This document shows, piece by piece, positions 21,330 through 58,429 of a stretch of DNA of 64,000 nucleotides; position 1 is the stretch's first letter, and each line of letters begins with the position of its first letter. The DNA comes from Demequina sp. NBRC 110051 (GTDB lineage: Bacteria; Actinomycetota; Actinomycetes; Actinomycetales; Demequinaceae): contig NZ_BBRH01000006.1 in NCBI RefSeq assembly GCF_002090055.1, forward strand, positions 1 to 64,000, written 5' to 3'. The position numbers were made by a program, and so were the translations under genes. A model generated the notes under the pieces. That model had not been told where the DNA came from and did not search any database. It was given only the letters and a program-made list of their open reading frames with translations.

Positions 21330-22265
21330 CTACTCGACCGTGAAGGTGAAGGCCTCGGAGATCGCGACGGTGGGCTCCGCGTCCACGATGTAGGACTCGG
21401 GGACGTCGCGGGTCAGCACCTCGGTCAGCACGTCCTGGGGTACGTCGCAGAGCAGTTCGGTGGCGCCGTCGGGGGTCTCGGACTCCTCGCAGTACGGCGC
21501 GATGCGCTCGTCGTCAGCGATCGCCGAGTAGCCGGCGGTGTACTGCAGCAGCGCGAGGTCGGTGAGGCCCTCCTCGGTCAGCGACCGCGCCACGGCGGCC
21601 GCCTCGCCCTGGATGATCGGGCTCCACGCGTAGACCTTGTATTCGCCGGCGGGGAGGCTCGAGTGCTCTGCCTCGAACTCGGCGACCTCCTCGTAGCGCG
21701 CCGCGACCTCCTCGTCCGTGGCGTTGTCCCAGTCGAAGTCGTCCCACAGCGCGGACATCTCGTCGGCCACGTCGCACAGTGACGAGCCCGTGATCGCGTA
21801 CGTGTCCGACGCCGCCGAGGGGCTCTCGCCCGCCGTCATGATGAGCTCGGGCACAAACTCGGAGCCCCATTCGGGGGTGACGACCACGTCGTCACGCGTC
21901 ACGATCAGCTGGCCCTGTTGGGCGAGGAACGCGGTGATGCCCTCGGCCTCGGAGGTGAACGCGACGCGGGCCGAGGCGGCGCCGTCGGCCGTCTCGACGC
22001 TCACCACGGGGATGACGCCATTGGCTGATGTCGCATCGGCCGTCCAGGTCTCACCGCAGGCCGGCGGGTTGAACAGGCCCTCGGCCGCGGACTCGATCGC
22101 CGCGAGGTCGTAGGAGAGCGGAACGGTCGCTCCGGCGGGGGTGTCGGAGGGGGCCGCGGCGGGGGCCTCGTCGCTCGAGACGATCCACTTCACGCCGTAC
22201 CACCCCACGGCCGCGGAGGCGCTCGCCACCGTGATCGCACCGATGACCATGAGGCCCTTGTGCAT
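21330..22265 (-). CDS. Membrane-anchored protein with four-cysteine ectodomain
   Basis: About 311 residues. One N-terminal membrane anchor (GLMVIGAITVASASAAVGWYGVKWIV), a Pro/Ala/Ser linker, then an acidic extracytoplasmic domain with four cysteines (PPACGETW, SSLCDVAD, APYCEESE, ELLCDVPQ). The phrase LPAGEYKVYAWSPIIQ and the strand RDDVVVTPEWG resemble LPAGDYEVHLAQTLAY and DYVVTWDGVIVG in the large sigma-linked protein at 29413-31239, so it may be an orphan relative. GGGAG precedes the ATG. No known Pfam-type domain is recognised. Confidence 0.65.
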   Translation of the reverse strand: MHKGLMVIGAITVASASAAVGWYGVKWIVSSDEAPAAAPSDTPAGATVPLSYDLAAIESAAEGLFNPPACGETWTADATSANGVIPVVSVETADGAASARVAFTSEAEGITAFLAQQGQLIVTRDDVVVTPEWGSEFVPELIMTAGESPSAASDTYAITGSSLCDVADEMSALWDDFDWDNATDEEVAARYEEVAEFEAEHSSLPAGEYKVYAWSPIIQGEAAAVARSLTEEGLTDLALLQYTAGYSAIADDERIAPYCEESETPDGATELLCDVPQDVLTEVLTRDVPESYIVDAEPTVAISEAFTFTVE

Positions 22266-22326
22266 GGACTCCCGTTCCTCCCGGCGCATGCGTGCGCCCG
22301 CTGCTCCATCGTGGGGTTGAGGCACA

Positions 22327-22355: not shown

Positions 22356-22504
22356 GCACGATTTTCCCCTCCCGCGCGAGGCCCCTGGCAGGTGCCCGAT
22401 GCACGTCGACCATTGAGGCCGCTTGACCCTCTTAACGCACGAGCATCACGAAACGTTGGTGTGGATTTGACCACATCGGGAGCGGGCCTCGACGGCCCAC
22501 GCGG

Positions 22505-29412: not shown

Positions 29413-31239
29413 TCACCTCACGGTGATCGTCCCCAGCGACGTCCACCGTTGAAGGTCGACCCAGTCGCTGTTGACCACCGCTGTGTCCGGCGCGGGTTCC
29501 GCGACGTCGGCGGAACTTGACGACGTGCCGCCGCCCTCCAGGGTTCCGGTCTCGGGCACCAGAGGCTCCACCTGCGGGGTCAGCAGCGCCGAGTCGTCCA
29601 CGGCGCCGCCCTCGTAGTACTGGGCGTCGTAGCTTGAGACATTGACGCTGGTCGCCGTCAGCAGCGTGTACGTGCCGGCCTCCACGCCGCCACCGTTGCC
29701 GTCGCAGCGGTTCACGTCGCGCCACAGGTAGGTGCCGGAGGCCGAGGTGCTGGGAGTCAACGCTCCCGTCTCCGGTGCCGGGGCGATGAGCATCTCGGCG
29801 CCGTCGGGGGCGACGGCATCGGCCGCCATTCCCGCCTCCTCGCGCATGATGACCATGTCGCCGTTGCGGTCGATCGACTGCGGGTAGCCCTCGGCGACGA
29901 TGCGTCCATCGCGGGCGAGATAGAGCTGCGGCTGCAGGCCCCAGAAGTTGGCGATCGCGTAGTCGGACACGTTCGTCACGCTCGCGGAGATCTCCGGGTT
30001 GCCGTCGACCACGAACCCATAACTCACGGATAGCGACGCGGGCGCGGTCACGTCCACGTCGAGCAGTTCCATGGTCGAGGACCGCTCGGGGAAGGTGGCG
30101 CCGTCGCCCCCGCCCCAGGAGCACCCGAAGAAGCGGTAGACGCCGGACGTGCCGTCGTTGAGGATCCACCGGTAGCTGCCGGCGGCCATGTCCCACGAGT
30201 CGTCGGTGGCCGCGGACTGAAACATCTGCCGGGCGACGTCGGGCGTCAAGGCCTGCGATCCCAGCCGGTCGGTGGGCTCGGTGGGCAGCGGGTCAGGCTT
30301 GGGCTCCACGGGCGTGCCGGGGTCGACCGGGTCGGGCGCGATGGTCTCGGTCGGCTCGGGCAGGGGCTCGGGCTCTGCCGTGCCGAGGTAGGCGCCGAAC
30401 GGATCGTCCACCTTCTCACCCGCGATCGTGAGCGAGACGGGCCCGGCGGCCACGCGGAACAGTTCGGGCATCGTGGAGTCGCTCGGGAGCTCCGTGGCAG
30501 CGTCAGCCGGGTACGCGAGCGTCTGCGCCAGGTGCACCTCGTAGTCACCGGCGGGCAGCGCCGCGCCGTCCCAGCAGTTGACCGCCGCGATGCTCTGCCA
30601 GGACTGCAGCGAGGAAAAGTCCGTCGCGGGGTCGAGCCGCTCGTAGACCTCGCCCGCGGGCAGCGACGGCTCGTCGGCCGGGCCGTAGACCAGGGGATCG
30701 GGTTCGAGGTAGGAGCCGACGATGACGCCGTCCCACGTCACCACGTAGTCGCCGCCACTGATCATGTCCACGGGGCGCGACGCGGTGAGGTTGCGCTCGA
30801 TCTCATAGCCACCATCGGTCGCCACGGCCTCGCTCACCTCGAACGTCACACCCGAGGTGTCGCCGTACGCCCACGCGGGATCGTCCGCGGAGAAGTCGGA
30901 CCCGCAGAGCCACGGCGAGGCCAGCATCGAATCACCCGCGGCGCCGTCGGCTTCGCCGGACGCCATGCCTTCGGGCGCGCCGCCTCCCGCAGCCGGCGCC
31001 GACTCCTCGGTCGCCATGTCGCCCGCGGCAAACCGATCCTCGTCGCCCGCAGAAGCAAACGAAGGCCCGATGATCCCCACGCCCAGGATCGCCACCGCAC
31101 CCACGGCGACCGCGCCGTTGGAACCCGTACGCAGGGCGCGCCGGCGCGCCACCTTGCGTGACGCATCGGCCGTCGAGACGGTCACGCCATCCACGGGTGC
31201 GCCATCCGCGGCACCCCTCAAAGCATCCGAAAGCTTCAT
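29413..31239 (-). CDS. Large membrane protein paired with ECF sigma factor (anti-sigma-like)
   Basis: 608 residues. A cytosolic N-terminus of about 40 residues (MKLSDALRGAADGAPVDG...ARRRALRTGSN), one membrane helix (GAVAVGAVAILGVGIIG), then two extracytoplasmic halves joined by a Pro/Glu-rich linker around residues 285-320. Cysteines occur in WLCGSDF, AVNCWDG, FFGCSWGG and VNRCDGN, and LPAGDYEVHL / EAGTYTLL are repeat-like strands. The start overlaps the sigma gene stop (ATGA), so it is most likely the membrane partner of that sigma factor. No zinc HxxxCxxC anti-sigma motif is present in the N-terminus. Confidence 0.7.
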   Translation of the reverse strand: MKLSDALRGAADGAPVDGVTVSTADASRKVARRRALRTGSNGAVAVGAVAILGVGIIGPSFASAGDEDRFAAGDMATEESAPAAGGGAPEGMASGEADGAAGDSMLASPWLCGSDFSADDPAWAYGDTSGVTFEVSEAVATDGGYEIERNLTASRPVDMISGGDYVVTWDGVIVGSYLEPDPLVYGPADEPSLPAGEVYERLDPATDFSSLQSWQSIAAVNCWDGAALPAGDYEVHLAQTLAYPADAATELPSDSTMPELFRVAAGPVSLTIAGEKVDDPFGAYLGTAEPEPLPEPTETIAPDPVDPGTPVEPKPDPLPTEPTDRLGSQALTPDVARQMFQSAATDDSWDMAAGSYRWILNDGTSGVYRFFGCSWGGGDGATFPERSSTMELLDVDVTAPASLSVSYGFVVDGNPEISASVTNVSDYAIANFWGLQPQLYLARDGRIVAEGYPQSIDRNGDMVIMREEAGMAADAVAPDGAEMLIAPAPETGALTPSTSASGTYLWRDVNRCDGNGGGVEAGTYTLLTATSVNVSSYDAQYYEGGAVDDSALLTPQVEPLVPETGTLEGGGTSSSSADVAEPAPDTAVVNSDWVDLQRWTSLGTITVR

Positions 31240-31775
31240 CGCGCGTTCCTTCCCTCGGCGGGCGCGCCATCCGCGACCGCCGCGTCCTCGAGTGGCCCGA
31301 GGGCCAGCTCCAGCTGCCCCAGCCCATCGCTGAGGTAGCGCTTCACCGTGCCGCCGGCCAGCCCAAGCTGGCGCGCAATCTGCGGCACGGTGAGGTCGTC
31401 AAAGAACCGCAGCACCACGCAGGCCCGCACGCGCGGCGGCAAGGTGGCCAGCGCAGCGGCCACGTCGGATCCCGCCTCGACCTGACCAAAGCGATCCGGC
31501 ACCACCGCATCGGCCTTGAACAGGTGCTGCACCCGCTGCCACCGCTGCTGACGGCGGTAGCCGTCGACATACGTGGAGGTAATCGCGCGGCGCACGTACG
31601 CCTCGGCCTTCAACGAGGTGAGGCCCGGCCGCTCCCGCGAGAACGTCCTGACCAGCGCGTCCTGGACCAGGTCCTGTGCCTGCACCGGGTCGCCGCACAC
31701 CAGGTAGGCGTACGACAGCAGCGCGCGTTCACGGTCGCGCACCAGCTGCTCCATCGTGTCCCGCCACTGGGCCAT
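31236..31775 (-). CDS. SigE-family ECF RNA polymerase sigma factor
   Basis: 179 residues. Region 2: LLSYAYLVCGDPVQAQDLVQDALVRTFSRERPGLTSLKAEAYVRRAITSTYVDGYRR; region 4: LPPRVRACVVLRFFDDLTVPQIARQLGLAGGTVKRYLSDGLGQL. This is the actinobacterial SigE-family (SACE/ECF41-unlike) layout without extra domains. GGAGG precedes the ATG. Coupled by ATGA overlap to the large membrane protein gene, which is expected to hold it at the membrane until a signal arrives (inference). Confidence 0.9.
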   Translation of the reverse strand: MAQWRDTMEQLVRDRERALLSYAYLVCGDPVQAQDLVQDALVRTFSRERPGLTSLKAEAYVRRAITSTYVDGYRRQQRWQRVQHLFKADAVVPDRFGQVEAGSDVAAALATLPPRVRACVVLRFFDDLTVPQIARQLGLAGGTVKRYLSDGLGQLELALGPLEDAAVADGAPAEGRNAR

Positions 31776-31976
31776 GACGTCCTCCGCTCACAGGCTGTCG
31801 GTTCACAGTGTCGACGGACAGGTCCGCCAAAACGTTGGGGCGGACGATGCGATGGCTGGCCTGTCACCCCGGCTCGCCGGGTTCCCGACGTGGGTTGCAG
31901 GCTTCCCCTAGAGTGGCAAGCAGCCCGGTGGGTCCACAGCGTGGTGGACCCCGTGAGCGTTCGTCAAGGAGGACGT

Positions 31977-50459: not shown

Positions 50460-51104
50460 CTAGGAGTGTTGCGGTGGCCTGCTCGCTGCGCGCTGCAGGG
50501 TCCAGCCCAGGTGGGCGAGCCAGGCCGGCATCGCGGCGACGGTGAGCGCGCGGTCCCACCAGCCAAAGCCATCGCCGACCTGCGCCTCCCACACCATGGA
50601 GGCGACGTCGAGGGCGAGGACTGTGACGGCGAGGATGACCTGCGGTGTTGCGAGCCGGCGCCACGTGGGAGTGCGGGCGAAGGTCATGGCTGCCGCGACG
50701 CCGAAGGCGACGAGCCCGGCCCAGGCGGCGACCTCGCCCACCGTGTGCATGGCGTCGTCGATGGGGAACACTCCGGCGAAGACCAGGCCGGTGCCGACGA
50801 CGAGGAGCATGCCGCGCAGCACCCGCGCACCGGGGATGCCGTGGAGAGCGCGGCGCAGCGCGATGCCCACGCCCATCCAGCCGAACCCGACGATCGCGAA
50901 GCCGGCCTGCATGAGCCATTCGAGGTCGCCTGTCACGTAGTCGCCGATGGCGGAGCAGCACGGGTCGAGGTCGTCGCGCACCACGTGCATCGCGATGGCG
51001 ACGGCGACCCAGATGGTCGCCGTGTACATGCCCGCTAACCCCAAGGCCGCAACGGAGAGCGGCACGCGACCGGTGGTGCGGGGGGAGAGCGTCGTTGCCT
51101 CCAT
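50460..51104 (-). CDS. DUF998 membrane protein (copy 1)
   Basis: 214 residues, about six membrane helices. Motifs of the family: DLDPCCSAIGDYVTGDLEWLMQAGF after helix 1 and GDGFGWWDRAL before the last helix. AGGGGG precedes the ATG at 51104. Function of DUF998 is unknown. A second member lies at 57685-58320 with the same closing motif (VGDGFGWWQRAL), and the two point away from, and bracket, the sigma/membrane protein island between them. Confidence 0.82.
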   Translation of the reverse strand: MEATTLSPRTTGRVPLSVAALGLAGMYTATIWVAVAIAMHVVRDDLDPCCSAIGDYVTGDLEWLMQAGFAIVGFGWMGVGIALRRALHGIPGARVLRGMLLVVGTGLVFAGVFPIDDAMHTVGEVAAWAGLVAFGVAAAMTFARTPTWRRLATPQVILAVTVLALDVASMVWEAQVGDGFGWWDRALTVAAMPAWLAHLGWTLQRAASRPPQHS

Positions 51105-51320
51105 GACGGCCCCCTCTCGAGGTTGCCTGTAATTCCAGATTACGCCCGCGGTGCGCTCTCGGGCCATCCTCCCTGCACACCACAATTTCCTCCGTGTCCA
51201 CCGGTGGGGCGGGCGTTCCCCGTGTGATGCGGTGGGTCCCCGCCGAGTTTGTGGTGCGGACGGCGGCGGGTGCTGGCCGGTGGTGAGGTTGGTCGTCTAG
51301 GGTGGCCGCCAGGGGGTCCG

Positions 51321-52058
51321 ATGACGAGGGTGGAAGACGCGGTCACGGCGCTGTACCGCGACCCGGCGCTGGCCGGTCTGGCGTTCGCGCTGGCCGGTTC
51401 GGTCGAGGGGGGAACGGCGCTCATGCGCGCCGCGGCGCCGCGTGCCGTGGCTCGAGGTTGGCGTCTCTCACGCGGATTGAAGTCGCGCATGCGTGACGCG
51501 CTCGCGGTCGTCGCGTGTGAGCGGTGGCGCTCGGGGGAAGCCAATGAGCCGTCCGCCCCGAGTGAGGGTGACGCGGCCCCCTCGGCCTTTGCCCCTCCCG
51601 CCGCGCCGGAATCGGCGTCCGTGCAGCCCGCCCCACCAGCACTCGCGCCGGAGGCAGCTGGCGGTCATAACCCGTATGCCCCGCCGTCATCGAGTGTCGC
51701 TCCTGTGTCTCCGACTGTAGACGCGGCGACCGTGCCGGTAGCCGCTCAGCCGCACTTCCCACCGCCGTCGCCAGAACCGGCGGACGAGCGCACTGCCGAG
51801 GCGCCGCAAGCCGAAACCCAGCCGCCCGAACCTCTCTCTGACCTCGACCTCGCCATCGCTGCCCTGCCCGACGACATCCGGCTTGCCATGGCGCTTCACT
51901 ATCGGTGCGACCGGGACGCGCGTGCGATCGCCCGCGCCATGCGGCTGGGTCGCGACGAGGTCATCGAACTGCTTGCGTTGGGCCGCTCTCGGCTGGCCGC
52001 GACGCTCGGCACCAGCGAGCAGGACGTCGAGCGCCTGGTCGTCACGGGAGTCGGCTGA
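51321..52058 (+). CDS. Aberrant sigma-factor-like protein with Pro/Ala-rich linker
   Basis: 245 residues. Residues 1-65 (LYRDPALAGLAFALAGSVEGGTALMRAAAPRAVARGWRLSRGLKSRMRDALAVVACERWR) follow the helix pattern of ECF region 2. A Pro/Ala/Glu-rich linker of about 95 residues comes next. The C-terminal 65 residues (LAIAALPDDIRLAMALHYRCDRDARAIARAMRLGRDEVIELLALGRSRLAATLG) follow region 4. Core-binding and -10 residues of region 2 are poorly kept, so it may not bind polymerase normally. AGGGGG precedes the ATG. The stop overlaps the next gene (TGATG), as for the real sigma genes here. The assignment is by pattern only. Confidence 0.6.
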   Translation: MTRVEDAVTALYRDPALAGLAFALAGSVEGGTALMRAAAPRAVARGWRLSRGLKSRMRDALAVVACERWRSGEANEPSAPSEGDAAPSAFAPPAAPESASVQPAPPALAPEAAGGHNPYAPPSSSVAPVSPTVDAATVPVAAQPHFPPPSPEPADERTAEAPQAETQPPEPLSDLDLAIAALPDDIRLAMALHYRCDRDARAIARAMRLGRDEVIELLALGRSRLAATLGTSEQDVERLVVTGVG

Positions 52059-53662
52059 TGCGCGACGCACGCGATGCGTTCGAGGACGCCGGCCACAGCG
52101 CCGCCGAACAGATCACCCAGACGCTCACGGACCCCGAGATCGTGTCGGCCGACATCGCCGCGAGTGCCCGCCGGCGCCGGCGCCTCACGACCGTCCGCAC
52201 CGGTACGGCGTGCGTGGCAATCGTCGCCGCCGCTGCCTCCGCGTTGACTCTGCGTCCCGAACCGCCACTGCCCGCGGGCACGAGCGCCGACGGCGTGGTA
52301 CGGGACATGCGGGTGATGGAACCCACCTGGAACGGGGGAAGGGCGAGCTGGAGTGGCGGCGAGTGGTGCTATCCCACGACGGATCCGGACCCGTACCTGC
52401 CCCGAGCGGAACGCGGCGTGACCATCGCCTCCGACAACGTCCGCGACGACGATATTCGGGTCGAAGGTCGAATCCTGAGGTACGACGACATCGGTTACGA
52501 ATTCGAGGATGCCGCCATCGAGCCGGGCGCGCTTATCGTCGACGAATCCACCACCTACAACAGCCAAGCAAACGGCCATAGTGTCGCGCTGGAGGTGAGC
52601 TGGACGGGGGATGCGCTGTATCAAGTCGACGCAGGCGCCCAACTCGTCGCGAGCGGACGTGCCATCAGCCCGGTCTACGGTTCCCCGCGCGACCTGCGCC
52701 GGGCGTGGGATTACTCGTCCGCAGCATGGCTGCCCCGGTACGATCCGGCGACCGATCGCAGCACAGTCACGTTTGTGTCACCGCTGGTTCCGTACTGCTT
52801 GGGCGACGACCAGACGTCGGCCGGCATGGATAGCTTCCTTGCCCCTGACCTACCCGCCGAGATCCATACAGCGGTGCAGGTGCGTTCCGAGGATGGCGAA
52901 CCGTTGGCGACGTTCATCGACGCGGCGGGCCTTGACGGCACCACGATCGAGTTTCAGGGCTACGCCGACCTCAGCGACACGATCGACCTCACGCCGCCCG
53001 GCCCCGAGGAGCTGGCAGAGGCCGCCGAACAACGCGACGCCCGCCCGCTCATCGTGCCCACACCGTCGTTGCTGGCACAGGTCCGGGATCAGGTACGGGA
53101 GCAAGGAACGGCTCTCGCCGAGGCCGGCGCCGGTGCACGGCTCGTCGCTGGCTGCGAGGACGTGGCGGCGCAGTTGGAGTGGGACGGGGCCGACCTGTCC
53201 GTGATCCCCGCCACCGCAGACCTAGGCGAGATCGCATGGTTGCGCGACTTCCCGGGCGAACTTGCTCTTGAAGGGTTGCGCGGCGGGACGGTGTGGGAGG
53301 CGCCGGACACACCCCTTGAGGGCAGCTGGGCGGTGGACTCCTTGGCGCTCTACCTCCTGGACTCTGACGGTGCTCTCGTTGCGCAGGCTCCGTTGGATCT
53401 CGAGTGGACCTTCGATAGCGAGGGGCTTCCTGATGAGGTGTCTCGCATCTCGTCGTACGGCGGGGCAGGAGGCTGTCAGGACGTCGATGAGCTCACGCCC
53501 GGCACGTATCGTGCGCTCGTTGTCGACCAGGACAACTCGACAGCGGTGTTCGACTACCCCTCGATGCCGGTCCCGACCGAGGCTGCGGGCGTCATGGTCG
53601 CCTGGTACGACCTGGGCGACATCGCGATCGTCGATGGCCCCTTCATCACGGGGTCCGCGTGA
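52058..53662 (+). CDS. Membrane-anchored four-cysteine protein, tandem paralogue 1
   Basis: 534 residues. Cytosolic N-terminus (MRDARDAFEDAGHSAAEQITQ...ASARRRRR), one helix (TGTACVAIVAAAASALTL), then a large acidic ectodomain with cysteines in EWCYPTT, VPYCLGDD, VAGCEDV and GGCQDVDE and the closing block LTPGTYRALVVDQ...LGDIAIVDG. It pairs with the next protein, whose N-terminus and ectodomain match. Gene order (sigma-like, then this) suggests an anti-sigma or sensor role. ATG overlaps the upstream stop. Confidence 0.7.
   Translation: MRDARDAFEDAGHSAAEQITQTLTDPEIVSADIAASARRRRRLTTVRTGTACVAIVAAAASALTLRPEPPLPAGTSADGVVRDMRVMEPTWNGGRASWSGGEWCYPTTDPDPYLPRAERGVTIASDNVRDDDIRVEGRILRYDDIGYEFEDAAIEPGALIVDESTTYNSQANGHSVALEVSWTGDALYQVDAGAQLVASGRAISPVYGSPRDLRRAWDYSSAAWLPRYDPATDRSTVTFVSPLVPYCLGDDQTSAGMDSFLAPDLPAEIHTAVQVRSEDGEPLATFIDAAGLDGTTIEFQGYADLSDTIDLTPPGPEELAEAAEQRDARPLIVPTPSLLAQVRDQVREQGTALAEAGAGARLVAGCEDVAAQLEWDGADLSVIPATADLGEIAWLRDFPGELALEGLRGGTVWEAPDTPLEGSWAVDSLALYLLDSDGALVAQAPLDLEWTFDSEGLPDEVSRISSYGGAGGCQDVDELTPGTYRALVVDQDNSTAVFDYPSMPVPTEAAGVMVAWYDLGDIAIVDGPFITGSA
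52167..52260 (+). repeat. 94-bp direct repeat, copy 1 (helix-coding region of paralogue 1)
   Basis: Bases 52167-52260 match 53771-53864 at about 92 of 94 positions, while the genes around them differ strongly. It codes for the Arg-rich stretch and membrane helix. Confidence 0.75.
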
Positions 53663-55200
53663 TGCGCGACGCACGCGACGCCTTCGACGCGGCGGGCCAG
53701 AGTGCGGCCGGTGCGATCACCGACAGCCTTGCCGGCCCCGACGCCCTTGCCGTCGACGTGGCCACTGCCTCCCGCCGGCGCCGGCGCCGCACGACCGTCC
53801 GCACCGGTACGGCGTGCGTGGCAATCGTGGCCGCCGCTGCCTCCGCGTTGACTCTGCGTCCCGAGCAACCGTTGGAGAGCATGGCGGCCGCGGATGGCAC
53901 CGTGGGCGAGGCGCTCATCATGCGCCTCGACGACCGTGTGGGTGGGTACTGCGGCGCCAGCATGAACCCAGAGCCTTACGTGCCGTTCGGCGAACCCGGC
54001 GTGGTGATCGCATCTGACGAGGTGCGCGACCTCGGGATCGAGATCGTCGCCCGCCCCCTGGAACTCACGTGGGAGGCCGAGCTCACCATCACTGAGACCG
54101 GGCACGACGGCGTAGTCTCCCTCGCCGAGGACCCCGAACAGGGCCTCACCAGCGTCATGACCGCCATCACCGTCAGCTGGGACGGTGATGCCCTGTACGA
54201 CGTCGATGCCGTGGCCTACATGGTGTCGGGCGGTCGTCTCATCAGCGCGACAGCTGCGTGGCCGGTCGACCTTTCGGTGCTCGAGACCGGTCAGTGGAGC
54301 TTCGACTCTCCCGTGCCGGTCTATGACGCAGCTGAGGACCGCAGTTCGATCACGTACATGTCTCAGATGGAACCCTCGTGCCTAGGGACGCTGGGGGCGA
54401 GTGAGGGCTATCCGTATCTCGCGCCGGATCTGCCCACCAGCCTGCATACGTTTGTGCAGGTGAGGGACGAAGACGGCACACCGTTGCTGACAAATACCGA
54501 CGCCGCAGGGCTCGACGGGACCATGGTGGAGTTCCCTGGGTTCGATCAGGCGGGGCTCACCACCGCCCTGGAGCCCGCAACCCCCGAGGAGATTGAGGAT
54601 GCCGAAGTAGCCGCGGCACGGGAGTTTCCACAGGTGCCGCACCGCTCGACCGCGGCCGAGGTGAGGGACCTGGTGGCGGACACCGGCGTCGCCCTGTCAT
54701 CGGCCGCCAGTGGGGTGCGTCTCCAAGCGCCGTGCGTAGCGAACGCTCGTGCGGTCGCGGGTGACGGCGTCGATATGCCCGTGGTCCCTACCGAGGTGGC
54801 GGACGTGTCGCTGCCCACAACCCTGCCGCGCGGAGCCGTCACGGGCGACGAGTGGTGGTCGAGCCTCGACGAGGAACAGCAAGCCAGTGGCGAGTGGTCC
54901 TCGTGGACGCAGCAAGGGCAGCTGTTCTTGCTCGACCCGGCCACCGGCGCACTCGTCTCGGCCACTCCCGTTCAGGTGGACTTCCTGATCGACATGGCCA
55001 GTGGGAACCGCGCCGAGCTTGTCGGCATGGCCAACCACATGGCGGCCACGTGCGGCGAATGGCCCCTTCCCGAGGCCGGAACGTACCGAGCGCTGCTCTC
55101 GATTGAGTACGACGGCGAACACGTCGAGGGGCTCGTGAGTGACGGCTACGGGTACTTGACCACGTGGGTGGACGCCGGCGAGATCGCCCTGGTCGACTAA
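53662..55200 (+). CDS. Membrane-anchored four-cysteine protein, tandem paralogue 2
   Basis: 512 residues, same plan as the preceding protein: MRDARDAFDAAGQSAAGAITD, basic ASRRRRRRTTV, helix TGTACVAIVAAAASALTL, then an ectodomain with four cysteines (GYCGASM, EPSCLGTL, QAPCVANA, AATCGEWP) and the ending LPEAGTYRALLSIE...AGEIALVD. The ATG at 53662 overlaps the previous stop; a GTG at 53659 is also possible. The DNA of the membrane-helix region is almost identical to paralogue 1 although the ectodomains have diverged. Confidence 0.7.
   Translation: MRDARDAFDAAGQSAAGAITDSLAGPDALAVDVATASRRRRRRTTVRTGTACVAIVAAAASALTLRPEQPLESMAAADGTVGEALIMRLDDRVGGYCGASMNPEPYVPFGEPGVVIASDEVRDLGIEIVARPLELTWEAELTITETGHDGVVSLAEDPEQGLTSVMTAITVSWDGDALYDVDAVAYMVSGGRLISATAAWPVDLSVLETGQWSFDSPVPVYDAAEDRSSITYMSQMEPSCLGTLGASEGYPYLAPDLPTSLHTFVQVRDEDGTPLLTNTDAAGLDGTMVEFPGFDQAGLTTALEPATPEEIEDAEVAAAREFPQVPHRSTAAEVRDLVADTGVALSSAASGVRLQAPCVANARAVAGDGVDMPVVPTEVADVSLPTTLPRGAVTGDEWWSSLDEEQQASGEWSSWTQQGQLFLLDPATGALVSATPVQVDFLIDMASGNRAELVGMANHMAATCGEWPLPEAGTYRALLSIEYDGEHVEGLVSDGYGYLTTWVDAGEIALVD
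53771..53864 (+). repeat. 94-bp direct repeat, copy 2 (helix-coding region of paralogue 2)
   Basis: Second copy of the repeat at 52167-52260; only two substitutions were seen by eye. Suggests recent duplication or gene conversion limited to this segment. Confidence 0.75.
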
Positions 55201-55269
55201 AGAAAAAGGGGGCGTCGGCCACAACCCAAGTGCGGCATCGGCCGTTCATATGCCGACGAAGGGGGTGCG

Positions 55270-55806
55270 GTGAGCGCTGACGATGCCTTGCTGACGGACC
55301 TACTGGAGCGCGCCTCCGGCCGGCTCGCGGCGTACGGGTACCTGCTGACCGGGTCGCAGCATGCGGGCGAGGACCTGGTGCAGGACGCGATCGTGAAGGT
55401 CTTCGTGCGGCGCCGTCGGCTCCCCAATGCGGCGGCGGCCGAGGGATACGTCCGTGCGGCGATGCGTACGCTTCATGTGGACCGGCTGCGGCGCGAGGCG
55501 CGGTGGCGGAACGTCGCGCCGGGGTTGGTGGGCGCCGGCGAGCTTCCTGATCACGCGGACGCAGTGGCGGCCTCGGATGCCGTCGCCCGCGGCCTTGCCG
55601 CCCTGAGTCCTCGCCAGCGCACCGCGGTGGTGCTGCGGTACTTCGACGACCTGCCGGTCGCAGAGGTGGCGCACGAGATGCGCCTCGCGACGGGCACTGT
55701 CAAGCGCTACCTGTCCGAGGCCCTGGACCGGATGGCAACAGTGGTGGGCGCTGACCTGGTGATCGACGAGCGGGCCGATGTCGTGGCGAAGGGAGAGCGG
55801 CGATGA
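55270..55806 (+). CDS. SigE-family ECF RNA polymerase sigma factor (second)
   Basis: 178 residues. Region 2: LAAYGYLLTGSQHAGEDLVQDAIVKVFVRRRRL...YVRAAMRTLHVDRLRREARW. Region 4: LSPRQRTAVVLRYFDDLPVAEVAHEMRLATGTVKRYLSEALDRM. It is a clear paralogue of the sigma factor at 31236-31775, and its domains line up with the two ends of the aberrant protein at 51321-52058. GTG start with AGGGGG upstream. Overlaps the next gene by 4 nt (ATGA). Confidence 0.9.
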   Translation: MSADDALLTDLLERASGRLAAYGYLLTGSQHAGEDLVQDAIVKVFVRRRRLPNAAAAEGYVRAAMRTLHVDRLRREARWRNVAPGLVGAGELPDHADAVAASDAVARGLAALSPRQRTAVVLRYFDDLPVAEVAHEMRLATGTVKRYLSEALDRMATVVGADLVIDERADVVAKGERR

Positions 55807-57668
55807 ACCTTCACGAGGAGTTGGGCAGGATCGGGGCCGATGCGACGGCAGGCTCCCGTGGGCGCCTCGCCTCTGCCGAGGTAGCGGACGGTCTGGGCGC
55901 ACGGGTGCGTCGCGGACGCCGCTCGCGGGTCCTTGGGGGTGCAGGTGTGGTCGCGGGTGTGGCGCTCGTGGCCGTTGGAGTGTGGAGCTGGGTGCCGTTC
56001 GGTGGTGCGGCGTCGGTGGGACCGGCGGGGACTTTGCCGCCGACACCTGCAGTGGGGAGCCCCGAGGCTGATCCCTACCTCTATCAGGTGGACGGCACCA
56101 CGCCGGTCGACACGAGCGCTCCCTTCTCGCTGGCGGGCGACTCTGCCGTCGTCTGCGGCGACGTCATCGATGTCGAGGCGGGCGGGTATTCGCTGAGCAG
56201 CGCAATGCCTGACGGAGGCGTGTTCCTGCTCGCCCGGCTCCACGCGGCTGAGTCAGCCGGAACGACCGCTGAGTGGGAGGTCAGTGTGGGAGGCGGCGCT
56301 TCCTCGATCACTGCGACCGCTGTGGCGATGGTGGGCGACGTGGTGGTTGGTGTGGGCAGCTCCACGTCGGGTCACAGCGTGAGCGACGGCTGGTCGACAG
56401 GGTCGTCGCTGTCGGCGCCGGAGCCCACGCGTTGTGGCGGCGCGTCCGACGACATCGAATTCAACGGCGCGACCGACGTGCGCGATGTGGTGCTGGTGGA
56501 GGCGTGGGGCACCACGGGTGAGAGCGCGCGTACCAGGCTTGCCGTTCTCGCCGCGGACTCGACCGAGCCGTCGAACTATGTGGAGGAGGGTCCGCTGACG
56601 ACCCCGTCGACCGATGCCGTGCCGCAGGGCGCAGTCGATAACGGCGCGCAACCGGTCGACACCAGTGACCTTCGTTGCGGCGCCGAAGGGCGGCTCGAGG
56701 AGGGCGCCACTTGGTATGACAAGGGCGCGACGGACGCCGACGTGGCGGCAGTGTCGCAGACGCTCGCCGACGACGAGAGCGTGGTGGAGCAGCCATCGAC
56801 GCTGTGGGTGGGATACGAGGCGCATCGGTTCGTGGTCACCGTTGAGGCCGATGCCGGACTGACATACGCCGCATACCCAATGCTGTTTCGTGGTGACGAG
56901 ATCGTGGGTCGTCTCGATCCGGTCGGCATCGATGGCGTGCAGGCGGTCGTGTACACGCCGCAGCCGGGGGACTGCGGCGCGTTCGGCGACTGGGTGAGCG
57001 GCAATGACGACACCTTCACCCCCAAGGTCCTGATCGAGGGGACCTTCGCCGACGGCACGGTCGGCGCTCAGTTTGTGGTGAGCGCCGGAGACATTGAGTA
57101 CACGGGTCTTGGACAGTGGGAGGGCGGCGTGCGGGAGCTCGACATCGAGGACCTCGCGACCGCGGAAGTCGTCACGCTGCTAGGCGGTTTCACCTGCGAG
57201 GCGACCCTGGATGCCGCGGAAGCCACGGCAGACGATGGTGTGGGGGACACCTCAACCGGGGCCTTCGCGCCTATCCCGAGCACCGTGGAGACCGGTCGAC
57301 TGTATGGGTACGGCGACGATGCTCTGGTGGGTGGCTACCCGGCGCCGCTCGGGCCCGATGCCACGTTCGCGGTCGAGGAGTTCGGCCGCGAACCGGCGCG
57401 GCTGGTGCTCTCGTCCGGCGAGGACCGGTGGGTGTTCGATGCCGCCTGGTCGGAGCGGGACGACCTCCCGCACGACGACGCTGGATGGTTCGTGGCCCTG
57501 AGCCAGGTCTGGGACTGCGGCTCGCCCGACTTGATCCCGGAAGGCGACTACGAGGCCCGGCTGATCTACTCGGATGCCGACGGCGACCAGGCGGGCACGG
57601 CGGTGCTCTCCGACATCGCGGTGGTGGAGGGCGTCCCCTCGCTCCCGGAAATCGACTCCGCCGGATAG
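55803..57668 (+). CDS. Large membrane protein paired with second ECF sigma factor
   Basis: 621 residues. Cytosolic N-terminus (MNLHEELGRIGADATAG...VRRGRRSR), one helix (VLGGAGVVAGVALVAVGVW), then an acidic ectodomain of about 550 residues with six cysteines (VVCGDVI, TRCGGAS, LRCGAEG, GDCGAFG, FTCEATL, WDCGSPD). The end LIPEGDYEARLIYSD...SDIAVVEG echoes the endings of the tandem proteins upstream. ATGA overlap with the sigma gene argues for an anti-sigma/sensor role. No recognised catalytic motif. Confidence 0.7.
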   Translation: MNLHEELGRIGADATAGSRGRLASAEVADGLGARVRRGRRSRVLGGAGVVAGVALVAVGVWSWVPFGGAASVGPAGTLPPTPAVGSPEADPYLYQVDGTTPVDTSAPFSLAGDSAVVCGDVIDVEAGGYSLSSAMPDGGVFLLARLHAAESAGTTAEWEVSVGGGASSITATAVAMVGDVVVGVGSSTSGHSVSDGWSTGSSLSAPEPTRCGGASDDIEFNGATDVRDVVLVEAWGTTGESARTRLAVLAADSTEPSNYVEEGPLTTPSTDAVPQGAVDNGAQPVDTSDLRCGAEGRLEEGATWYDKGATDADVAAVSQTLADDESVVEQPSTLWVGYEAHRFVVTVEADAGLTYAAYPMLFRGDEIVGRLDPVGIDGVQAVVYTPQPGDCGAFGDWVSGNDDTFTPKVLIEGTFADGTVGAQFVVSAGDIEYTGLGQWEGGVRELDIEDLATAEVVTLLGGFTCEATLDAAEATADDGVGDTSTGAFAPIPSTVETGRLYGYGDDALVGGYPAPLGPDATFAVEEFGREPARLVLSSGEDRWVFDAAWSERDDLPHDDAGWFVALSQVWDCGSPDLIPEGDYEARLIYSDADGDQAGTAVLSDIAVVEGVPSLPEIDSAG

Positions 57669-57684
57669 TTGCGGATATCTCGTG

Positions 57685-58320
57685 TTATTCGTCCGTGGCG
57701 CGCGAGGGCTCATTGCTGAGCCGTGCCCCGAGTGCCGCGAGCCAGCCCGGGATGAGGGCGAAGGCTAACGCGCGTTGCCACCACCCAAACCCATCGCCGA
57801 CCACCTCGGGCCACGCGAGATAGACGGCGAGGAGGCCGCTCGCGACCATGCCGTAGGCGAGCGACACCCCCGTCCACCCGCTCCACACGTCGGTGGCACG
57901 GAAGGTTCTCCACCCGACGAACCCCACGGCGATGAGGGTGATGAAGGCGAGTCCCGCGCCGCGAGAGTGAAGCCAGCCCTCGACGCTGACCGTGGGGGAG
58001 CCGAGCGGGTCGGCGCGGAACACCCCAGCTACAACGAGGCCCAGGGCGCCCAGCCACGCTAGGACGGCGAGCGAGATCCCCGCCCGGCCTGGCACTGTGC
58101 GACGCAGCCCCTCTCCGGCGGCCGCCCAGCCTGCCGCATTGAGGAAGAACGCGAGCCGCATGAACCATGCCCAGTCGCCGCGGGCGTAATTGCTGATGTA
58201 GGCGTCACCGGGAGCCAGGTCCGGGCGTAGCAGGTGGAGCACCGCGATGATGGCGACCCATGCCACGGCGCCGGCGATGGCCGCGCTTCCGAGCATGCGG
58301 ATGGGGTCGGTTCTGGACAT
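57685..58320 (-). CDS. DUF998 membrane protein (copy 2)
   Basis: 211 residues, about six membrane helices. Family marks: DAYISNYARGDWAWFMRLAFF and VVGDGFGWWQRAL. It is a paralogue of the protein at 50460-51104. Start taken at ATG 58320 (MSRTDPIRM); a GTG at 58335 is possible and neither has a Shine-Dalgarno sequence. It ends 16 bp from the convergent membrane protein gene, so the two 3' ends nearly touch. Confidence 0.8.
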   Translation of the reverse strand: MSRTDPIRMLGSAAIAGAVAWVAIIAVLHLLRPDLAPGDAYISNYARGDWAWFMRLAFFLNAAGWAAAGEGLRRTVPGRAGISLAVLAWLGALGLVVAGVFRADPLGSPTVSVEGWLHSRGAGLAFITLIAVGFVGWRTFRATDVWSGWTGVSLAYGMVASGLLAVYLAWPEVVGDGFGWWQRALAFALIPGWLAALGARLSNEPSRATDE

Positions 58321-58429
58321 GCTTGAGGTTCGCACACGGTGACAGTTCAGATGGGTGGCGGCGCCGCGCGGGCGCGCGACCGCGGGCGGCTTCGCGGGGA
58401 CTTTGTTGGAGCCTTCGCGGTGGGGTGGC

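Follow-up and report, generated by a model that had tools for sequence, protein, structure and literature searches.

In Demequina sp. NBRC 110051, an island of sigma-like and membrane-protein genes was found to encode a member of a recurrent class of pseudo-sigmas, which keep the scaffold of an extracytoplasmic function (ECF) sigma factor and have lost its polymerase and promoter residues. The island lies at positions 51321-57668 of a stretch of 64,000 nucleotides (contig NZ_BBRH01000006.1, positions 1 to 64,000; hereafter the window) from a GC-rich genome of 2.75 Mb in the marine actinobacterial genus Demequina. Pseudo-sigmas account for 34 of 207 sigma-like genes and occur in 24 of the 45 genomes sampled, or about half. 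A promoter type is shared by the normal sigma genes and is absent from the 260 bp upstream of the pseudo-sigma genes. Both the class and the promoter type had been missed by a preliminary description of this DNA. We propose, at somewhat less than an even chance, that the normal genes form autoregulated sigma/anti-sigma modules and that the pseudo-sigmas act as decoys for the anti-sigma tails.

Organization of the island

The preliminary description had placed here an aberrant sigma-like protein, two tandem membrane proteins, a SigE-family sigma factor and another membrane protein, with start and stop codons overlapping between each sigma-like gene and its partner, and a third such pair at 29413-31775. 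Gene order and coordinates stand as first described (P0001, P0002/P0003, P0004, P0005), the third pair (P0007/P0006) is present, and the overlaps are borne out by the coordinates. The features are as follows.

51321..52058, + strand: P0001, pseudo-sigma (from residue losses, substitution ratios and a structure model), with a sigma2-like domain at about residues 1-72, a Pro/Ala-rich linker at about 73-165 and a sigma4-like domain at about 166-245
51669..51686, + strand: NPYAPP motif within the P0001 linker, matching [YW]xP[PG]
52058..53662, + strand: P0002, membrane partner of the pseudo-sigma P0001, built of a basic tail, one helix and a 4-Cys ectodomain; alternative start TTG 52055
53659..55200, + strand: P0003, tandem duplicate of P0002; alternative start ATG 53662
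55222..55246, + strand: ECF-type promoter site CAAC-N17-CGTT, 48 bp before the P0004 start codon
55270..55806, + strand: P0004, normal SigE-family-like ECF sigma factor
55803..57668, + strand: P0005, membrane partner of P0004, putative anti-sigma factor with a 6-Cys ectodomain
31813..31837, - strand: ECF-type promoter site CAAC-N17-CGTC, 62 bp before the P0007 start codon
31236..31775, - strand: P0007, normal SigE-family-like ECF sigma factor
29413..31239, - strand: P0006, membrane partner of P0007, with a 4-Cys ectodomain

The stop codon of P0001 (52056-52058) overlaps the start of P0002 (TTG 52055 or ATG 52058), that of P0002 (53660-53662) the start of P0003 (GTG 53659 or ATG 53662), and that of P0004 (55804-55806) the ATG of P0005 at 55803; the ATGA at 31236-31239 is common to P0007 and P0006. 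The 69-bp gap between P0003 and P0004 contains the ECF-type promoter site. Judged by their sequences, P0002 and P0003 (43% identity) are a tandem duplication; the duplicate is also present in genome G029, and a relative of P0003 at 85% identity was found in Demequina sp. NBRC 110055. Islands with a pseudo-sigma also occur in G029, G031 and G001, with topA directly adjoining in the latter two, and in frame-broken form in G011. The assembly of G011 is poor, topA also being split into several frames, and we therefore do not read the stop codon within the match to P0001 as decay. Genome G002 has sigma pairs without a pseudo-sigma. The P0007 subfamily has 32 sampled members, one per genome in 32 genomes.

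Sigma factors and their pairing with short-tail membrane proteins

P0004 and P0007 are ECF sigma factors by their Pfam regions 2 and 4, which score above the gathering score in both proteins (P0004, 25.0 bits at a cut-off of 24 and 48.6 at a cut-off of 25.7; P0007, 36.8 and 51.7 bits). P0001 is not one by the same measure and is aberrant as first described, with region 4 reaching only 13.1 bits (cut-off 25.7), region 2 not among its matches, and contact residues lost. The assignment of P0004 to the SigE family held in that TIGR02983 was its best NCBIfam match, although its 114.6 bits lie under the curated cut-off of 141.55; P0007 likewise matched TIGR02983 best, at 119.9 bits and below the same cut-off. 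At E ≤1e-15 there are 4 to 19 TIGR02983 matches per genome in all 47 family genomes, and the curated cut-off is exceeded in 2 of the 47. The genome of the window has 10 matches, six of them with a short-tail membrane partner.

A set of 207 non-redundant sigma-like genes from 45 genomes of the Demequinaceae was collected from loci fetched around normal sigma matches, a pair being a sigma-like gene and the next gene downstream, whose product has a single predicted helix close to its N terminus; the pair sets are thus selected for this helix. The 207 pairs support the expanded family of sigma-coupled membrane modules suspected from the window. Stop and start codons overlap by four bases in 165/207 pairs and are separated by one base in 22 more. 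A class-wide comparison used 119 high-scoring sigmas with room downstream from families outside the Demequinaceae, which are the top-scoring TIGR02983 matches and hence a non-random draw; the layout was found in 100 of these and 19 had no such partner. Therefore, the layout of a sigma followed by a short-tail, one-helix protein is widespread in the class and not particular to the island.

A recurrent class of pseudo-sigmas

The 207 rows comprise 170 normal sigmas, 34 pseudo-sigmas and three that are neither. Scores against the normal profile are bimodal, with 170 rows at 170 bits or more and the 34 at 24-117 bits, the latter scoring higher with a second profile. In the polymerase helix, D35 falls from 92% of normal to 17% of pseudo-sigma rows and Q38 from 83 to 7%; in the -10 region, Y60 falls from 99 to 0% and D71 from 92 to 7%; and in the -35 helix, G142 falls from 99 to 19%, K145 from 85 to 0%, R146 from 84 to 6% and Y147 from 97 to 3%, losses that are partly circular because the profiles that define the classes were made from rows of this kind. 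In ECF sigma factors, the lost stretches correspond to regions 2.2, 2.3/2.4 and 4.2. The scaffold residues L19, G28, A40, R117 and L148 are kept at 90-100% in the pseudo-sigmas.

A tree was built from 27 of the 34 rows (P0001 left out as too gappy; lost-residue columns removed); on it, the class needs at least six changes of state, and one clade holds 20 rows from 11 genomes. Two further pseudo-sigmas were found beyond the 34, and in G018 the match of a further pseudo-sigma holds one TGA. Outside the genus, none of the matching frames in 21 loci (L391-L411) was pseudo-like, these loci covering only the best matches of 119 genomes, with weaker matches not examined. In loci longer than 9 kb, a normal pair lies nearby for 21/26 pseudo-sigmas vs 47/125 (p 6.5e-5), a biased comparison since the loci were fetched around normal sigma matches. 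With the pseudo-sigma alignment as query, a sigma classed as normal by the profiles stands no more than about 4.3 kb from 18 of the 19 top rows, the neighbour of the remaining one (G014) not being classed. Arrays of one or more normal pairs with two pseudo-sigma pairs, at a spacing of about 2.1 kb, were seen in nine genomes (L111, L112, L114, L105, L106, L118, L119, L163 and L202). No account of these pseudo-sigmas was found in the titles and abstract starts of the sigma literature searched; a large ECF re-classification may hold an earlier notice.

The best matches of P0001 have 73% (G029) and 44% (G031) identity. The ratio of nonsynonymous to synonymous substitution rates (dN/dS) against G029 is 0.104 for the sigma2-like domain, 0.489 for the linker and 0.105 for the sigma4-like domain, compared with 0.076 for the neighbouring normal sigma, and four other close pseudo-sigma pairs (79-88% identity) have ratios of 0.22-0.39. 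These ratios indicate that constraint on the pseudo-sigmas exists. The AlphaFold2 model of P0001 has a mean predicted local distance difference test (pLDDT) score of 70.1, with ten-residue means of 68-94 in the first domain, 80-96 in the last and 43-56 between them. VIA-align superposed the model on SigG1 (Z 10.9), RpoE of RpoE-NepR (10.4), CnrH of CnrH-CnrY (9.2) and PhyR of PhyR-NepR (9.0), although Z below about 13 may for helical models reflect a common arrangement only. A sigma fold is thus predicted for P0001, and its residue losses suggest that it is probably no longer able to bind RNA polymerase or the promoter. A receiver domain is not among its Pfam matches up to E 1.

The P0001 linker of about 93 residues contains one copy of a motif that recurs in the class. 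The pattern [YW]xP[PG], picked after inspection of the linkers, is present in 10 of the 11 long pseudo-sigma linkers (2000 shuffles: mean 0.8, maximum 5/11). The recurring Y/W-x-P-P/G motif suggests a further binding partner.

Promoter sites and the visible regulon

When two-part words were counted in the upstream sequences of 137 non-redundant normal sigma genes, CCAAC-N17-CGT appeared in 55 vs 0.49 expected. Searching for CAAC-N17 or N18-CGT within 260 bp upstream, with shuffled sequences as control, we found the site before 120/170 normal sigma genes (shuffled 4.65) and 61/99 external ones (shuffled 1.75), and before 0/34 pseudo-sigma genes (shuffled 1.15). Widening the search to 400 bp gave one site before the 34. 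For 92 of the 96 N17 sites, the distance to the start codon is 40-79 bp. Unlike the residue losses, the contrast between the classes in this site is not circular. Nor does position in an array explain the absence of the site: among genes directly behind another pair it precedes 8/17 normal vs 0/19 pseudo-sigma genes (p 0.0008), and among the remaining genes 112/153 normal vs 0/14 pseudo-sigma genes (p 5e-8; one pseudo-sigma row had no upstream sequence).

The site carries subfamily-specific extensions, CCCAACGTTT ... CGTCGAcA in 31/32 of the P0007 group and CAACC ... CGTTCATaTG in 16/25 of the P0004 group. Promoter variants follow the sigma subfamilies, which speaks well, if indirectly, for transcription of the normal sigma operons by their own sigmas. 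A single regulon for all the sigmas was considered and is weakened by these extensions, which suggest that the subfamilies may be insulated from one another. The site is not universal, since five subfamilies of 21, 12, 6, 4 and 3 members have 5, 0, 2, 4 and 3 sites.

A stricter pattern, which the P0004 site does not match, gave five sites in the whole genome and none in the reversed control. One precedes P0007, one an orphan gene in the window and one a small lipoprotein gene; another lies inside a gene read the opposite way and the last has no clear gene behind it, so these two may be chance occurrences. The features of the orphan gene are as follows.

22434..22458, - strand: ECF-type promoter site upstream of the orphan ectodomain gene
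21330..22325, - strand: orphan membrane-anchored protein without an adjoining sigma gene

The orphan protein aligns over 364 columns at 27% identity (E 2.7e-18) with a sigma-paired membrane protein of G032 (L103), and Pfam gave it no match up to E 0.1; by its promoter site, it is likely a member of the regulon. By eye, it seems to be without an anti-sigma tail. The small lipoprotein gene behind the site is also found in G029, so that the same promoter type precedes it in two species (L357 1520-2116 and L384); its product carries a Cys-Gly motif and, by eye, a lipobox, and a Pfam search up to E 0.1 gave nothing. A related short membrane protein (MTVPHIS...) stands behind this promoter type in L365 and L370 near 1500 (G009, G014). 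The family-wide pattern search was sampled at 30 loci, each from a different genome; the site lies before a SigE-type sigma in 22 of them and not in the other eight. The visible regulon therefore consists mostly of the sigma modules themselves.

Tails and ectodomains of the membrane partners

The cytosolic tails of the four window partners (P0002, P0003, P0005 and P0006: 42, 44, 42 and 35 residues) lack the zinc anti-sigma motif HxxxCxxC, as the preliminary description had stated, and 4, 4, 6 and 4 cysteines lie beyond the helix, in line with its four or more. By eye, P0002, P0003 and P0005 clearly have the closing block that it had ascribed to all of them, P0006 only loosely. The median tail of the 207 pairs has 43 residues, and the window tails have 35-44; these lengths fall below the 50 residues under which anti-sigma domains were set aside as possible class II (PMC7406223, in excerpt). 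HxxxCxxC was found in the cytosolic part of 0/207 family and 0/100 external partners and in 1/120 of a looser first set. Membership in class I remains compatible with these counts, since the sets were chosen for an early helix and zinc-free class I domains exist. In the same genome, an ordinary ECF sigma is followed by a membrane protein with HxxxCxxC, as judged by eye (L021 7377-8986, - strand).

In the first 120 partners, the median net charge is +3 for the tail, +5 for the last 15 residues before the helix and -39 for the ectodomain. Among complete proteins, the number of ectodomain cysteines is even in 185/194 of the family and 94/95 of the external set, as expected for disulfide pairs, although binomial values overstate the case because the rows are related. 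A Pfam scan of 71 partners (20 proteins of alignment A7 were outside the scan) gave no match at E <0.001, and up to E 0.01 two single partners matched, one DUF6215 (0.0085) and one Rv2743c (0.0016). No match up to E 1 to PDB sequences was obtained with a profile of ten P0003 relatives. The suspected undescribed sensor domain is thus upheld in lacking a Pfam match in the scanned partners and is no single domain, as the 120 partners fall into 22 BLAST-linked groups (34, 24, 20, 10, 9, 4, 3 and 2 members and 14 singletons). An AlphaFold2 model of P0003 from four rows had a mean pLDDT of 42.9 and was not used for a fold search; its tail is predicted at low confidence (all pLDDT <50) to form helices at residues 2-10, 14-24 and 26-38.

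Genes flanking the island

Two DUF998 membrane proteins (PF06197) flank the island, at 50460-51122 (- strand, E 1.6e-15) and 57688-58335 (- strand, E 7.1e-16), and look-alikes judged by eye adjoin it in G029, G001 and G002. Just past the window, L024 108-7388 encodes a predicted protein of 2426 residues, the start of which is fibronectin-like by eye.

Proposed mechanism and alternatives

In the normal pairs P0004/P0005 and P0007/P0006, we propose that an autoregulated ECF sigma would be held at the membrane by its single-pass partner, of which the cytosolic tail of 35-45 residues would act as a minimal anti-sigma domain and the disulfide-bonded ectodomain would receive an envelope signal. P0001 would most likely bind the tails of its own partners P0002 and P0003. 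When signalled, perhaps through its own membrane partner, P0001 would compete for or redistribute the tails in the same array, leading to the release of P0004. This would be partner switching by sigma mimicry with the logic of PhyR-NepR-EcfG, the mimic being encoded as a free protein. A wider claim, that Demequina has repeatedly made free-standing sigma decoys, each with its own sensor and mostly arrayed beside a real autoregulated pair, by which the response to one envelope signal would be gated by a second through partner switching, is in our view doubtful.

Pair layout, tail length and gene neighbourhood all point to minimal membrane anti-sigma factors. The membrane proteins might instead be targets or effectors whose only tie to the sigma is shared expression, as the orphan ectodomain protein behind the same promoter type could indicate; but most pairs are translationally coupled, all have a short basic tail, and anti-sigma genes often adjoin their sigma gene (PMC7406223, in excerpt), and we consider this improbable. 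Tests of sigma-tail coupling bear on the same question. The mean of the 30 strongest covariation scores was 1.17 in Demequina (170 pairs), 1.12 in the external set (100) and 1.00 in all (270), above all 15 shuffles in each set (maxima 0.94, 0.87 and 0.84), which plain co-inheritance could also produce. The geometry tested, with tail helix 1 on sigma4 and helix 2 on sigma2 as in known complexes, was not recovered: concordance was 33 of 60 in Demequina (shuffled 30.3), 34 in the external set (28.9) and 33 in all (30.6), within the shuffle range throughout, which would also suit an effector role. In a mirror-tree comparison (23 genomes, 122 pairs), sigma distances track ectodomains (r 0.59) over tails (0.44), the membrane helix giving 0.25, and the tail is therefore not singled out. 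Both results weigh against the decoy model, as do several others. The lost residues lie in regions touched by known anti-sigma domains (PMC7406223, in excerpt), so a decoy might bind differently. Foldseek gave no E-value <0.09 for the P0001 model, the VIA-align scores lie in the range of its warning, and the residue losses are partly circular. Against G031, the three parts of P0001 have dN/dS of 0.611, 0.506 and 0.474 at a dS of about 1.0, so that the contrast between domains and linker is lost, and the overall ratio is 0.54 vs 0.12 for P0004. Pseudo-sigma pairs at 50-64% identity have 0.40-0.73. Constraint on the pseudo-sigmas is therefore looser than on the normal sigmas.

Such ratios would suit plain sigma/anti-sigma modules in which the pseudo-sigmas are duplicates undergoing decay and serve no function of their own, as would their frequent place in arrays with normal pairs (21/26 in the biased sample, 18/19 of the best rows) and the absence of the promoter site before all 34 within 260 bp. 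However, the ratio of 0.10 for both P0001 domains against G029, those of 0.22-0.39 in the four close pairs, the kept scaffold residues, the recurring linker motif and the clade of 20 rows in 11 genomes argue against decay, which we regard as unlikely. That the pseudo-sigmas remain sigma factors with altered promoter choice accords with the sigma2- and sigma4-like domains predicted for P0001, but D35, Q38, Y60, D71 and the GTVKRY recognition stretch are lost in most rows, and this reading is very improbable. A pseudo-sigma might also be a cytosolic adaptor, its sigma fold docking on the tail and its linker motif signalling to a non-sigma protein. The motif occurs in 10/11 long linkers that are otherwise unalike, and the P0001 linker has a ratio of 0.49 against G029 vs 0.10 for the domains; but the motif was chosen after inspection, the 11 rows represent few lineages by eye, and in the 20-row clade a longer linker is seen in the G035 row alone, where the motif is absent. 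We consider an adaptor unlikely. The decoy model, with the reservations given, is the one we propose.

Relation to known systems and implications

The nearest sigma family is TIGR02983, the best family of P0004 and P0007, with single-pass short-tail partners in 100/119 external sigmas; the Demequina proteins differ in scoring mostly below its cut-off and in having pseudo-sigma members. Similar to the class II factors CnrY and NepR, the partners have a cytosolic part below 50 residues without a zinc motif and a tail predicted, at low confidence, to be helical, whereas no sequence family match was found. NepR is not known to be membrane-bound. In CnrY, one of two helices lies on sigma4 and the other on sigma2 (PMC7406223, in excerpt). 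The zinc-binding class I factors (ZAS) resemble the Demequina partners in being encoded directly after the sigma gene, and differ in HxxxCxxC, which the Demequina partners lack, and in their longer tail. PhyR mimics EcfG and replaces it on NepR (PMC8999054, in excerpt). P0001 shares a sigma-like domain with PhyR, to which its model aligns (4qic, Z 9.0), but has no receiver match and is encoded with its own membrane partner; lacking a receiver domain, P0001 is not a PhyR and may work like one.

The general layout is already widespread, and what is new is a second, promoter-less class of dead sigmas tied to membrane sensors. Even if the decoy model is false, the short-tail partners and promoter variants provide a set of testable sigma/anti-sigma pairs. 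If it is true, ECF partner switching would arise by duplication and decay of a sigma gene alone, with no kinase or response regulator, and the pseudo-sigmas (34 + 2) would form a natural dead-sigma series for mapping how anti-sigma tails are recognized. Many envelope sensors would then be integrated by duplicating sigma/anti-sigma pairs, with one sigma dying.

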